A DNA stretch of 64,000 nt from Mucilaginibacter geliditolerans (GTDB taxonomy: Bacteria > Bacteroidota > Bacteroidia > Sphingobacteriales > Sphingobacteriaceae). The translations under genes and the position numbers were made by a program. Location of the stretch: positions 151,210 to 215,209 of the forward strand of contig NZ_JACHBY010000009.1 in NCBI RefSeq assembly GCF_014200495.1. Direction: 5' to 3'. The notes beneath the pieces were generated by a model, which ran no database searches, was not told the origin of the DNA, and was given only the letters and a program-made list of their open reading frames with translations. Numbering within the stretch: position 1 is the first letter of the stretch; each line of letters begins with the position of its first letter. Below are positions 11,497 to 56,816 of this stretch, in pieces.

Positions 11497-11521
11497 TTGT
11501 TTTTATTTATTCTTGTTAATA

Positions 11522-11622
11522 GTTGATGGTTCATAGTAAACTATGCCCACCTTGTGTATTCTCTTTTTATTATGATGATCTGTTGTTCAAAAACTATGAA
11601 CTATGAACCATCAGCCATGAAC
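11522..11622. repeat. Heptad-phased inverted repeat between prs and rplY
   Basis: The right arm (11592-11622) is made of consecutive 7-nt words such as AACTATG, AACCATC and AGCCATG. The left arm (11522-11546) has matching complementary words such as GTTGATG and GTTCATA. TGATGGTTCATAGT (11524-11537) pairs perfectly with 11600-11613. See the finding on heptad elements. Confidence 0.6.
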
Positions 11623-11626
11623 TTTC

Positions 11627-12571
11627 TCAATCCACCTTAAACAACTGGCTTATTGAGCCATGTTCGTTTACATTTTCAATAGCACTTGCAAACAGTTTAG
11701 CGGTTGTTAATACTCTTATCTTCTCGCTTTGATATTTCAGTGGTATAGTATCCGTAACTATCAGCTCAGTTAATACCGAATTCTCGATAGTTTCATATGC
11801 TTTTCCTGATAATACCGGGTGCGTACAAACCGCTCTTACGGTACGTGCGCCACGCTCCATAATTAATGCTGCTGCTTTAGCCAGCGTACCTGCGGTATCG
11901 CAAATATCATCTATCAGTACAATGTCCTGATCGGTTACATCACCTATCAGTGTCATTGATTCAATTTCATTTGCACGTTTGCGGCGTTTATCGCAAATAA
12001 CAACCTCGGCATTAAAAAACTTGGCGAAGCTGCGTGCCCTGTATGAACCGCCCATATCCGGCGAGGCAATCGTTAAATTACCTAAGCCCAGGCTTTTTAT
12101 ATAAGGTACAAAAATGATCGAAGCATCCAGGTGATCAACCGGGATGTCAAAAAATCCTTGTATCTGAGCCGCGTGCAGATCCATGGTCATAATACGGTTA
12201 ATACCCGCTGCAACCAATAAATTAGCTACCAGCTTTGAGCCGATTGCCACACGTGGTTTGTCTTTTCTATCCTGGCGTGCCAGCCCAAAGTAAGGGATAA
12301 CTGCCGTTACATAATGTGCTGATGCCCTGCGTGCAGCGTCAATCAGCATTAGTAATTCAATTAAGTTATCAGTTGGCGGGTTGGTTGATTGTATTAAAAA
12401 CACATCGCAACCACGTACTGATTCATTAAAATGCGGCTGAAATTCGCCATCACTAAATACTGAAAGGGTCACCTCACCTAATTCGCGCCCGTAAGCATCA
12501 GCAATATTTTGTGCCAATACTTGAGTACCTGAACCTGCAAATAACTTAATGGGGTTAAACTGTAAAGGCAT
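11627..12571 (-). CDS. prs: Ribose-phosphate pyrophosphokinase
   Basis: A 314-residue enzyme that makes PRPP from ribose 5-phosphate and ATP for purine, pyrimidine, histidine and NAD synthesis. Family marks are the SDGEFQPHFNESVRG segment (residues 40-54), the catalytic flexible-loop and ATP segment GLARQDRKDKPR (96-107), TMDLHAAQIQGFF with the metal/ATP histidine (129-141), and the PRPP-binding loop VLIDDICDTAGTL near 225-237. It is a full-length class I enzyme. It lies downstream of tRNA-Gln and upstream of rplY on the same strand. Confidence 0.96.
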   Translation of the reverse strand: MPLQFNPIKLFAGSGTQVLAQNIADAYGRELGEVTLSVFSDGEFQPHFNESVRGCDVFLIQSTNPPTDNLIELLMLIDAARRASAHYVTAVIPYFGLARQDRKDKPRVAIGSKLVANLLVAAGINRIMTMDLHAAQIQGFFDIPVDHLDASIIFVPYIKSLGLGNLTIASPDMGGSYRARSFAKFFNAEVVICDKRRKRANEIESMTLIGDVTDQDIVLIDDICDTAGTLAKAAALIMERGARTVRAVCTHPVLSGKAYETIENSVLTELIVTDTIPLKYQSEKIRVLTTAKLFASAIENVNEHGSISQLFKVD

Positions 12572-12583
12572 CTTCTATATTAT

Positions 12584-12744
12584 TTCGAATATCGAATTTT
12601 CGATTTCGGATTTGATTTATAATGATTTAGAATATTTAATCAGCTTGAATATCCTGTTGCCAAAGCTACTATAAAACAATTCGGATTTCGATTTTTTAAA
12701 CCGGAAAAAATCCGAAATCAAAAACCCGAAATCCGAAATCAAAT
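12584..12744. repeat. Heptad-phased inverted repeat between tRNA-Gln and prs
   Basis: The right arm (12711-12744) consists of 7-nt words such as ATCCGAA, ATCAAAA and ACCCGAA in unbroken phase. The left arm (12584-12618) has the complementary series TTCGAAT, ATCGAAT, TTCGGAT. The arms are about 90 bp apart, with a partial inner copy at 12680-12695. Confidence 0.6.
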
Positions 12745-12748
12745 TTTG

Positions 12749-12819
12749 TTGCCCGACCAGGATTCGAACCTAGACAAACGGTACCAAAAACCGTCGTACT
12801 ACCATTATACTATCAGGCA
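12749..12819 (-). tRNA. tRNA-Gln(UUG)
   Basis: A cloverleaf can be drawn: acceptor TGCCTGA/TCGGGCA with discriminator A, D-stem GTA/TAC, anticodon stem ACGGT/ACCGT around the loop TTTTGGT with anticodon TTG, and T-arm CTAGG-TTCGAAT-CCTGG. CCA is not encoded. It lies upstream of prs on the same strand. Confidence 0.93.
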
Positions 12820-29923: not shown

Positions 29924-29943
29924 TTATTAATTGATCTATATGA

Positions 29944-29976
29944 AACGCTCTGTTCCAAAAGAACAGAGCGTTTTTT
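29944..29976 (+). terminator. Intrinsic terminator of the GIN-domain gene
   Basis: AACGCTCTGTTC pairs perfectly with GAACAGAGCGTT over a 5-nt loop, followed by TTTTTG on the plus strand. Confidence 0.88.
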
Positions 29977-29992
29977 GTTTAGAGATGATATA

Positions 29993-30025
29993 AGACTTAC
30001 GAAGTTTTAAAAACTTCGTAAGTCT
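29993..30025. repeat. ACTTACGAAGT-type palindrome, copy 2
   Basis: Arms AGACTTACGAAGTTT (29993-30007) and AAACTTCGTAAGTCT (30011-30025) are perfect complements. It lies between a terminator and the next large palindrome. Confidence 0.8.
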
Positions 30026-30035
30026 GCTTTTCTCT

Positions 30036-30141
30036 CCAAGCGTCATTGCGAGGTATGAAGCAATCCCCGACTTTGCAGATCCACTTGCAAGGACCGCTCT
30101 ATATAGTTAGGGATTGCTTCATACCTCGCAATGACGCTTGG
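30036..30141. repeat. REP-like palindrome, GTCATTGCGAGG family, copy 2
   Basis: Perfect 32-bp arms at 30036-30067 and 30110-30141. Compared with copy 1 the arm reads GAGGTATGAAG instead of GAGGAACGAAG, and the opposite arm carries the matching changes, so pairing is kept. It lies between the convergent GIN-domain and rplQ genes. Confidence 0.85.
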
Positions 30142-30157
30142 AAATAACGTTGAAAAC

Positions 30158-30192
30158 AAAAAAAGGCCCTGATCAAATGATCAGGGCCTTTA
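30158..30192 (-). terminator. Intrinsic terminator of the S10-spc-alpha unit
   Basis: AAAGGCCCTGATCA pairs perfectly with TGATCAGGGCCTTT across a 2-nt loop; on the minus strand TTTTTTTG follows. It lies 23 nt after the rplQ stop. Confidence 0.9.
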
Positions 30193-30214
30193 ATATTAAT
30201 TGAAAGAGGATTAA

Positions 30215-30793: not shown

Positions 30794-30874
30794 TGTTTTT
30801 TAATTTTAGCACGTGCATACCGTTGGGCGATTACCTCAAGCCCTCGGAATTATGCCTTCGCTGTTTTTATTGTT

Positions 30875-30943
30875 AGTAGTGAATTGTGAGTGGTGAGTAT
30901 GAAGCAGTAAAAACTACTCACTATTCACCAATCACTGCTCACC
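30875..30943. repeat. Heptad-phased inverted repeat between rpoA and rplQ
   Basis: The right arm (30913-30943) is a run of 7-nt words of the form CTNNTCA (for example CTACTCA, CTATTCA, CTGCTCA). The left arm (30875-30899) has the complementary form, for example GTGAATT and GTGAGTG. The arms are 13 nt apart. Confidence 0.65.
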
Positions 30944-30946
30944 AAA

Positions 30947-31939
30947 TTATTCTTCGTCTAACTTAAATTTAGACAGGTTCATACCGAAAGATAATCCTTT
31001 TGATTTAACCAGGTCCTGAATTTCAGTTAATGATTTTTTTCCGAAGTTTCTGAATTTTAACATGTCAGCAACATCATATGATACTAAATCAGCCAGGCTG
31101 CGGATGTCAGCAGCTTTAAGGCAATTTAATGCACGTACTGAAAGATCAAGGTCAACCAATTCAGTTTTCAGGATCTTGCGCATGTGCAGGATCTCTTCAT
31201 CAACTTCTTTAGTTTCTTCCTTAGCCTGTGCTTCAAGCATCATGTTTTCATCGCTGAACAGCATAAAGTGCTGGATCAGGATCTTTGCTGCTTCTTTAAG
31301 CGCATCTTCAGGGTGTATTGAACCATCAGTTGTAATATCCAGCACTAATTTTTCGTAGTCTGTTTTTTGTTCAACACGATAGTTTTCAATAGTGAACTTT
31401 ACATTTTTGATCGGGGTGAAAATAGAATCGATAGCTATTACACCTACATTAGCATCCGGGTTTTTATTTTCGTCGCTTGGGATGTAACCGCGACCCTTGT
31501 TGATAGTAAGCTCGATTTCAAGCGTTACTGAAGAGTCCATGTTACAGATAACAAGGTCAGGATTTAAAACTGTAAAGTTGTTAGAGAATTTGCTGATATC
31601 GCCAGCTTTAAAAGCATCCTGACCATTAATGATCACGAATATTTTTTCGCTGTCGCCAGATTCGCCTGTCTTTTTGAAACGTACCTGTTTAAGGTTCAGT
31701 ATGATCTCGGTAACATCTTCAACAACACCTTTGATTGTAGAAAACTCATGCATCACTCCTGAGAAACGTACAGAAGTAATCGCATAACCTTCTAATGATG
31801 AAAGTAAGATACGACGCAGAGCATTACCAATGGTTATACCGAAACCTGGTTCTAACGGACGAAACTCAAACGTGCCATCAAAATCAGTTGATTTCTGCAT
31901 GATAACCTTGTCTGGTTTTTGAAATGCTAAAATTGCCAT
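30947..31939 (-). CDS. rpoA: DNA-directed RNA polymerase subunit alpha
   Basis: A 330-residue polymerase subunit. The N-terminal assembly domain (about 1-230) carries [25 protein letters not shown] and the [16 protein letters not shown] segment. The C-terminal DNA- and activator-binding domain (about 255-325) has [22 protein letters not shown] and [11 protein letters not shown]. The length is normal. The gap from rpsD upstream contains a hairpin with a T-tract that could attenuate transcription. Confidence 0.97.
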
Positions 31940-38335: not shown

Positions 38336-38734
38336 TTAATATACGTAGCATAAAACCTCACCACCAATATTTTGCTGACGAGCTTCTTTATCGGTCATTA
38401 TACCGTGAGAAGTTGACAGTATGGCGATACCTAAACCATTTAATACTCTTGGCAAGTTATCTGTACCTGCGTATTTCCTTAAACCAGGTTTACTGATACG
38501 AGCGATGCTGCGGATAGCAGAAATTTTAGTTATCGGGTGGTATTTTAATGCCACTTTAATAGTTCCTTGCGGACCATTATCCTCAAACTTGTAGTTCGCG
38601 ATGTAACCTTTGTCGAAAAGCACCTTAGTGATTTCCTTTTTCAGATTTGATGCTGGTATTTCCACAACCCTATGGTTGGCTTTAATAGCATTTCTTACAC
38701 GGGTAAGATAATCTGCGATTGGATCTGTATTCAT
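38336..38734 (-). CDS. rpsH: 30S ribosomal protein S8
   Basis: A 132-residue 16S rRNA-binding protein and, in many bacteria, the repressor of the spc operon. [26 protein letters not shown] and the C-terminal [31 protein letters not shown] are diagnostic. The 148-bp gap before it, occupied by a heptad-phased inverted repeat, is unusually long for this position. Confidence 0.97.
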
Positions 38735-38794
38735 TACTTATTGTTTATGATAGTGGTTTCCGTAGACCTTCTATCGGTTAATTATTCTTTTTTA

Positions 38795-38882
38795 AGTATC
38801 AGATAGCTAGTACATAGTATCAAGTATTGAATATCAGTTGTAGCTATCTTGCTACTTGATACTAAATACTTGTTACTGAATA
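38795..38882. repeat. Heptad-phased inverted repeat between rpsN and rpsH
   Basis: The clearest member of the class. The left arm (38795-38837) is six consecutive 7-nt words (such as AGTATCA and AGTACAT). The right arm (38843-38882) is the complementary series (such as TGATACT and TGTTACT). The arms meet across about 5 nt. Confidence 0.72.
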
Positions 38883-39152
38883 TTACCAGCTAGCTTTTCT
38901 TACTCCCGGGATTTTACCTGCTAGTGCCATTTCGCGGAAAGTTACCCTTGAAATGCCGAACTGGCGCATATAACCACGTGGGCGGCCGGTTAATTTACAC
39001 CTGTTGTGTAATTTTACCGCTGATGAAGCTTTAGGCAATTTGTCTAAAGCTAAATAATCTCCTGCTTCTTTAAGGGCAGCCCTTTTTTCAGCATATTTAG
39101 CTACTAATTTGGCACGTTTTACTTCGCGTGCTTTTATTCCTTCTTTAGCCAT
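38883..39152 (-). CDS. rpsN: 30S ribosomal protein S14
   Basis: An 89-residue long-type S14 without the zinc CxxC motifs ([20 protein letters not shown] is the family signature). The long, zinc-free form is usual for Bacteroidota. The start overlaps the rplE stop by one base, so translation is probably coupled. Confidence 0.97.
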
Positions 39153-40900: not shown

Positions 40901-40908
40901 TTTCTTGT

Positions 40909-40977
40909 TAGTTATTTGAGTTTTTAGTTCCAAGCCCGCTTATCAAACTGATAACTGCAAACTCAAAACTGCTAACT
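40909..40977. repeat. Heptad-phased inverted repeat between rplP and rpmC
   Basis: The right arm (40948-40977) consists of 7-nt words of the form CTNNNAA (CTGATAA, CTGCAAA, CTGCTAA). The left arm (40909-40931) carries the complementary AGTT-containing words in the same phase. Confidence 0.65.
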
Positions 40978-40984
40978 TTTTTAT

Positions 40985-56693: not shown

Positions 56694-56760
56694 GTTATTT
56701 GTTTTTGTAACCAACTATAAGAGCTATTATCTATAGTCGATTGATTGTTTATTTGTATTA

Positions 56761-56807
56761 AGTTGATTGAGTAATAAAAGAACTAATCTCCAATCACTCA
56801 ATCAACT
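56761..56807. repeat. Inverted repeat between fusA and rpsJ, loose heptad type
   Basis: AGTTGATTGAGT (56761-56772) pairs perfectly with ACTCAATCAACT (56796-56807). The following words (for example CCAATCA, CTCAATC) recur at 7- or 8-nt spacing, so the phase is less strict than at 38795-38882. Confidence 0.5.
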
Positions 56808-56816
56808 AATCTCTAT

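Follow-up and report, generated by a model that had tools for sequence, protein, structure and literature searches.

Heptanucleotide repeats have been described in several groups of bacteria. The TAACTGA repeats of Beggiatoaceae, Cyanobacteria and some Bacteroidetes are mostly intergenic, occur also in ribosomal protein (r-protein) operons and have other heptamers mixed in, and between two Cyanothece strains their indels are mostly 7-nt steps (PMC4679880). They are direct arrays of a single fixed word and, in the main species, mostly lie shortly ahead of start codons; the parts of that study drawn upon here describe neither paired arms nor the replacement of word dialects at orthologous gaps. 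The GGGNATC repeats of Xanthomonas and Nostoc are partly degenerate heptamers found between the same genes of related species, where their length and sequence vary; they were studied as G-quadruplex formers, and paired arms do not appear in the portion of the description used here, which also mentions heptanucleotide short tandem repeats of Calothrix PCC7601 (PMC4692102). REP/BIME elements are intergenic palindromes with proposed mRNA roles that form sequence families, most of them GTAG- or CGTC-tagged (PMC3733652). Furthermore, intrastrand template switching has been described as a process that creates and restores the stems of RNA hairpins; an excess of G-C pairs with a 5' G over C-G pairs has been proposed as its trace, and an excess of U-A over A-U pairs is also expected (Monttinen and Loytynoja 2022, PMC8794818). 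The main text of the latter paper does not contain the words 'tandem' and 'slippage'.

Here we analysed paired arrays of degenerate 7-nt words in the window, i.e. the whole stretch of 64,000 nt under study (G000:C9:151210-215209), which comes from a 6.5-Mb Mucilaginibacter genome, G000. The arrays resemble the TAACTGA repeats in period, mostly intergenic location, presence in r-protein operons, mixture of heptamers and unit-sized indels, and the GGGNATC repeats in their degeneracy, whereas their arms are paired. Like REP/BIME they are palindromes with a putative mRNA role, but they share grammar, not sequence. Heptamer repeats are already known, but in the open-licence literature, judged by top-ranked titles and starts of abstracts, we found no account of paired degenerate heptad arrays replaced at orthologous gaps.

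Results

The type hairpin, of the TACTNNN dialect, occupies positions 38795..38882 (minus strand; arms 38799-38826 and 38853-38879) between rpsN (38883..39152, minus strand) and rpsH (38336..38734, minus strand), presumptive names based on the first-pass annotation and operon order. Its arms can also pair in shifted registers, and the gap is 96% identical in the sister genome G026. Five further sites lie on the same strand: an AACTNNN hairpin in the rplP/rpmC gap (40907..40976; arms 40907-40938 and 40944-40976), a CACTNNN hairpin in the rpoA/rplQ gap (30872..30942; arms 30872-30899 and 30915-30942), a GAACTAT hairpin at 11515..11622 (arms 11515-11537 and 11600-11622), a three-armed ATTTCGG array at 12577..12744 (arms 12577-12613, 12680-12697 and 12708-12744), which adjoins a tRNA (12749-12819), and a hairpin without detected heptad phase at 56761..56807 (arms 56761-56775 and 56793-56807). 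The rpoA-rplQ hairpin is of another dialect in G026 and missing in Mucilaginibacter sp. L196, whose RpoA is 99% identical to that of G000. At the Rfam gathering score, a tRNA is the only match in the whole window. Outside the type array, a conserved leader is located 5' of rpsH (approximately 38735..38790, minus strand; ATTAACCGAT..GGAAACCAC.ATC, also ATTAACCGATGGAAGGTCG..GGAAACCACCATC; by eye in 34 genus gaps). Another leader, before rplQ (CATAATTCCGAGGGCTTGA..GCCCAACGGTATGCACGTG; rplQ-side part of the gap 30794-30871, minus strand), is strongly conserved genus-wide. Both leaders resemble autoregulatory sites of r-proteins; at its gathering score Rfam matches neither of them in the window. 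In the convergent gap 29924-30214, G000 has a long inverted repeat (GCGTCATTGCGAGG..), and the sequence that G026 has there is different and much longer.

With low-complexity segments left out, lag-7 segments were detected at 11500-11537, 11592-11622, 12573-12613, 30864-30942, 38778-38834, 38848-38877 and 40946-40977. The arms are degenerate, with a lag-7 identity of 0.59-0.72, and are not perfect or near-perfect copies of one word; a TAACTGA tandem unit is absent at all six sites, which contain AACTGNN at 40946-40977 and other words elsewhere. The first-pass annotation had described heptad-phased paired arms at these sites. Inverted repeats are present at all six, and the expectation that the arms pair better than chance was borne out, with RNA folding z-scores against dinucleotide shuffles of -4.2 (38790-38888), -3.7 (11515-11627), -2.2 (12580-12725, where part of the outer arm lies outside the tested stretch), -5.3 (30870-30947), -3.1 (40905-40982) and -6.9 (56755-56812). 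Heptad phase applies to five of the sites; at 56761-56807 no lag-7 segment reached a score of 9. Similarly, the claimed strict 7-nt phase describes the lag-7 arrays, but some arrays of the same kind have a period of 8, and the array at 12584-12744, listed as having the same architecture, does have lag-7 words and paired arms but possesses a third, inner arm.

The predicted lag-7 excess over shuffled intergenic DNA was found in the window as well as in 216 gaps outside it, taken from 20 systematically placed 20-kb stretches of G000. In these gaps z was 4.0 at both lag 7 and lag 14 and higher, 5.2, at lag 4; none of the remaining lags from 5 to 28 exceeded 2.7. Local lag-7 segments numbered 13 at a score of at least 9 (shuffled mean 5.6, maximum 10 in 40 shuffles), 10 at 10 or above (mean 2.7, maximum 5), 6 at 11 or above (mean 1.1, maximum 4) and 4 at 12 or above (mean 1.0), the last being below the shuffled maximum of 6. 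The excess is modest: small per gap genome-wide and strong where arrays sit. Across 1.14 Mb of G000 sequence and r-protein loci of the genus, periodic segments other than low-complexity ones were most frequent at lag 7 (112), followed by lags 14 (86), 8 (49), 15 (44), 12 (34) and 9 (22), with 2-14 at lags 5, 6, 10, 11 and 13. In their 7-nt periodicity above chance the arrays agree with heptanucleotide tandem repeats (SSR/STRR), from which their degenerate arms differ. The Calothrix PCC7601 heptanucleotides are known as STRR (reportedly Mazel 1990), and we know of no inverted pairing among them.

Word dialects recur. NACTNNN, ATCTCAN, GCTTTNN and ATTTCGG are found at many loci and in many species, and within G000 itself the 38795 region matches 13 further places, the best-scoring of them 74% identical, in contrast to the conserved high-copy palindromes of REP/BIME; among the matches listed it also recurs in other genomes of the genus. 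Inspection by eye of own-genome copies showed no MITE-like copy with a conserved loop. One three-armed array has matches at E <= 0.001 in at least 102 of 148 genus genomes; of those listed, seven near full-length ones (query included) and one more are all located in the same gap. A search of G000 for ACT every 7 nt, five times, gave 46 matches against 10 for the reversed control; 11 of the 46 are frames of a perfect ACTGTCA array, whose TCA phase is probably the source of the 10 control matches. This long, nearly perfect tandem array (G000:C11:105296-105396) forms the clean end of the heptad-array spectrum. Pattern matches occur in 91 of the 121 genomes of the family, and counts were higher than the control in 75, lower in 20 and tied in 26. 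Within the phylum, 161 of 247 genomes have a match, and since many have equal control matches, specificity of the pattern is weaker at that level. An apparent restriction to ACT words turned out to be an artefact of the ACT-based search: when arrays are detected from their period only, TCT, GAT and GAG cores appear and the ACT core is at its expected count.

After removal of duplicates among L002-L038, 29 G000 loci were used. The surrounding gap is convergent for 8 of them, tandem for 10 and divergent for 5; the other 6 fall within open frames, some of which are miscalled. Arrays also occur in protein linkers. Five sequences of a DEAD-type helicase linker were extractable from 16 genomes: three contain word arrays in different dialects, one a weak array and one an inserted domain instead. 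In two linkers of PrmC, some species have arrays, in differing dialects, whereas others lack them (alignments with 9 and 10 rows, among them the own genome; one genome is represented twice and one row is misaligned). Length differences in the extracted helicase and first-PrmC-linker rows are multiples of three. At the heptad-array site of the helicase linker, the open frame at L151:880-1626 (G027) harbours, after a SPALSRGEG-type segment, a DUF559 domain (Pfam PF04480, E 9.5e-35).

Genes of the r-protein operons were mapped by tblastn in 32 further genomes of the genus besides the window and G026; hairpins were counted in gaps of at least 60 nt and with arms of at least 18 nt. Lag-7 z was 20.3 at rpsN-rpsH (34 genomes), 18.0 at rplP-rpmC (31), 17.9 at rpsD-rpoA (32), 17.3 at rpoA-rplQ (32) and 16.3 at rpsM-rpsK (33), and lag 7 was the top lag at four of these gaps (z 17-20; 31-34 Mucilaginibacter genomes). 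Because orthologs are not independent, these values overstate certainty; however, the sequences are often without common words. Weaker and less specific signals were obtained at map-infA (8.7), infA-rpsM (6.8, with 7.1 at lag 4) and rpsC-rplP (5.1). Lag 7 was not the top lag at the control gap rpsE-rplO (z -3.9), which we take to be long enough for rpmD. The rplR-rpsE gap measures 12-13 nt in 31 genomes compared to 77-97 nt with a period-8 array in three. Depending on the species, the words in the rpsN-rpsH gap are TACTTGA, ATTTCGG, GCTTTNN, GACTNNN, TCTCTAA or TTCAAAA, while ten species have a non-periodic gap, which in several of them contains a hairpin and T's along with a motif similar to the Bacteroidota promoter consensus. 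Such heptad-free hairpins (e.g. AAAACATA..TATGTTTTGAATTTTTT), followed by promoter-like sequence, are seen in L102, L105, L109, L110, L113 and L120, as if a terminator and an internal promoter overlapped. At rpoA-rplQ, short gaps without an array occur in L103, L115, L116 and Mucilaginibacter sp. L196, so the hairpin is dispensable there. The same gap of L125-L131 and L140 holds three-armed arrays in which the first arm pairs with the inner or the outer arm; the inner arm is trailed by T's, an arrangement which by analogy might be attenuator-like.

We compared folding between periodic and strictly non-periodic gaps, using a strict split in place of a looser one whose non-heptad class held weak arrays. 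Median folding z was -4.05 in periodic (24) versus -5.6 in non-periodic gaps (10) at rpsN-rpsH, -5.6 (21) versus -5.95 (8) at rpoA-rplQ, where 3 of 32 gaps, short and array-less, were dropped, and -5.05 (16) versus -5.55 (16) at rpsD-rpoA; at rplP-rpmC it was -3.3 (26) versus only -1.5 (5). The looser split gave the same outcome at these four gaps, and close values at rpsM-rpsK (periodic -3.4, n = 9; non-periodic -2.95, n = 24), but not at rpsC-rplP (periodic -5.4, n = 4; non-periodic -2.45, n = 26). The control gap rpsE-rplO had a median of -0.6 (34). Since heptad-free sequences fold equally at three of four gaps, the hairpin rather than the words seems to be kept, and the weak non-periodic folding at rplP-rpmC and rpsC-rplP means that conserved folding is not general.

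For polarity and placement, 183 r-protein hairpins were reduced to 68 non-redundant ones by removing redundant, short and weakly periodic cases. G exceeds C in the 5' arm of 66 of the 68 (p 1.6e-17, uncorrected for shared descent). The same polarity was seen at the 29 G000 loci found by pattern or type-array matches (15 to 1 among 16 heptad hairpins) and was weaker in the genome sample taken without selection (8 to 3 among 13), in which non-heptad hairpins show none (36 to 39 among 89). G-C pairs with the G on the 5' side outnumber C-G pairs 426 to 122, as proposed for template switching, whereas T-A and A-T pairs are balanced (545 versus 573), without the U-A excess also expected. With the words of one arm permuted, 56 of 68 hairpins pair less well (below 5% for 23); the test is biased by the fact that the arms were chosen for pairing. 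Being built from a word dialect, arms are able to pair in more than one register. In 64 of the 68 the hairpin starts within 10 nt behind a stop codon, which may merely reflect limited room ahead of the conserved leader. Some three-armed gaps have an inner arm with a T-run. An intrinsic terminator was rejected as an explanation, as a T-run directly follows the 3' arm in only one of 68 hairpins.

Orthologous arrays are mostly either near-identical with indels of whole units or of a wholly different dialect beside little-changed genes. Between the window and G026, in which rpoA, rpsD, rpsC and secY are 97-99% identical (9 of the 46 window gaps, with flanks not found in G026, were left out), a single exact 7-nt word separates the two arrays at 11522 and a 15-nt indel those at 12584, while the rpoA-rplQ array and the 56761 hairpin are wholly different, the latter gap containing in G026 another hairpin with 8-nt units (by eye). 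An octad array shows an exact 8-nt indel between relatives. In the five closest pairs of genomes (rpoA 0.968-0.983), array gaps are mostly at least 0.92 or at most 0.75 identical; the rpsM-rpsK gap ranges from 0.60 to 0.99, including values of 0.81-0.82. Gaps that can still be aligned differ by few point changes and unit indels, and at rplP-rpmC two double substitutions between G035 and G032 preserve pairing (by eye). G017, G031 and G013 (rpoA 0.971-0.975) have three rpoA-rplQ dialects among them, although G031 and G013 share 99.3% identity over the first half of rplQ. Among the matches listed, both rpoA-rplQ arrays have same-gap relatives, the window's in G111 (87% over 68 nt) and that of G026 in G140 (86% over 63 nt); the G026 array also has a match that scores slightly higher, located at an unrelated locus of G016 (85% over 74 nt). 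Given that both dialects have same-gap relatives, old arrays exchanged between lineages would explain this replacement equally well.

Discussion

Our comparison extends and partly revises the first-pass annotation of these elements. Its claim of completely different words at each site does not hold, given the 13 own-genome matches of the 38795 region and its recurrence in the genus, nor are word sets private, as dialects are found again across loci and species. The common features also go beyond period and pairing, since the G-bearing 5' arm adds a polarity. Alignment of orthologs confirmed that words change while phase and pairing persist, but through wholesale replacement for the most part and not by word-by-word drift. 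The suggested replication slippage gains support from the exact unit indels of 7 nt at 11522 and 8 nt in the octad array. The idea of RNA insulators is consistent with placement behind stop codons and with non-heptad folding at three of four gaps, neither of which amounts to proof.

Our preferred reading, to which we assign a probability of roughly 0.4, is that slippage together with template switching or array copying makes and swaps the arrays, and that selection keeps a sequence-indifferent hairpin after the stop codon. Unit indels and turnover can be read from the alignments, while the mechanism and function that we infer would be as follows. Paired tandem arms of degenerate 7-nt, sometimes 8-nt, words would be made and renewed by replication errors, and their hairpins kept wherever useful or harmless. 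Slippage at 7-8 nt would account for gain and loss of words, template switching between arms would create and restore pairing, and whole arrays could be copied in from elsewhere via short word homology or flanking genes, be it by ectopic template switching, by short-tract conversion or through exchange with other strains. Within r-protein operons, the place of action of the hairpin would be the mRNA directly after the stop codon, as a processing site or as an expression barrier between neighbours; because it would depend on structure and not on sequence, its words would be free to change. Equal folding with and without heptads and the placement behind stop codons make such a putative sequence-indifferent mRNA hairpin our best guess for the r-protein gaps. 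It is not the whole story, as an mRNA 3' role is inapplicable to arrays in divergent gaps and protein linkers.

Arrays in PrmC and DEAD-type helicase linkers besides gaps would equally be expected if they were mutationally driven minisatellites without function, tolerated at permissive sites, and the array-less sites and the perfect tandem version at C11:105296-105396 also fit this explanation. We nevertheless find it doubtful, considering that non-heptad gaps fold equally at three r-protein sites, that arms pair in word order and that arrays are placed within r-protein operons. Interspecies exchange of gaps by homologous recombination via the conserved flanking genes, with old arrays travelling along, could explain why the G013 array is like that of G027 (0.94) although its adjoining genes are closer to G105 and G031, and why both rpoA-rplQ dialects have same-gap relatives. 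This appears unlikely to us: the recurrence of dialects at unlinked loci would be left unexplained, the non-ribosomal gap at 56761 likewise holds different hairpins, and among the matches listed from 148-149 genus genomes there is no near-identical donor at E <= 1e-9.

Cassette-like replacement within a gap, and the existence of filled and short sites as at rplR-rpsE, are also reminiscent of a non-autonomous, REP/BIME- or MITE-like mobile element moved by a transposase, whose subfamilies would be the dialects. Over 15 genomes the pattern-match count indeed correlates with the count of Y1 transposases (rho 0.70, partial 0.53 given genome size), but also with genome size itself (rho 0.78), and the genome with the most pattern matches (G020; 513, control 449) has four Y1 matches. 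Y1_Tnp was found in 13 of 16 genomes and had no match in G051, G078 and G104, which contain 14, 6 and 8 pattern matches (controls 13, 1 and 11); as only G078 clearly exceeds its control, the argument from Y1-less genomes is weak. By eye, copies in the own genome have no common loop or flank and the compared sites no target duplication, and we regard transposition as decidedly unlikely. Far less probable still is that the words are binding sites for a heptad-reading RNA- or DNA-binding protein. Here, the AACTGNN words at 40946-40977 resemble TAACTGA, which is repeated in r-protein operons of Beggiatoaceae and in five Bacteroidetes and for which S1, cold-shock or Csr proteins were proposed (MacGregor 2015, PMC4679880); against this, many unrelated dialects serve one gap, and the arms are predicted to be paired, not single-stranded. 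A reverse transcriptase as writer of the arrays is unlikely, PF00078 having matches in 7 of 16 genomes and none in G000, G020 and G026.

A more far-reaching possibility, which we consider improbable, is that Bacteroidota possess a dedicated process which composes hairpins of paired, degenerate arrays according to a grammar of 7-8 nt words, always G-arm first, and swaps them whole between loci, thereby renewing structure-only RNA elements in essential operons. If true, this would amount to a novel class of genomic elements whose defining traits are grammar and fold instead of sequence.

As period, pairing and polarity are what is inherited, homology searches will largely miss such elements. If our preferred reading, renewal by replication errors and selection for the hairpin, is right, the r-protein gaps would provide natural replicates for the birth and upkeep of RNA stems, with the same gap and fold but unrelated letters in many species, and the template-switch theory of hairpin origin would become testable in bacteria with strains from culture collections.
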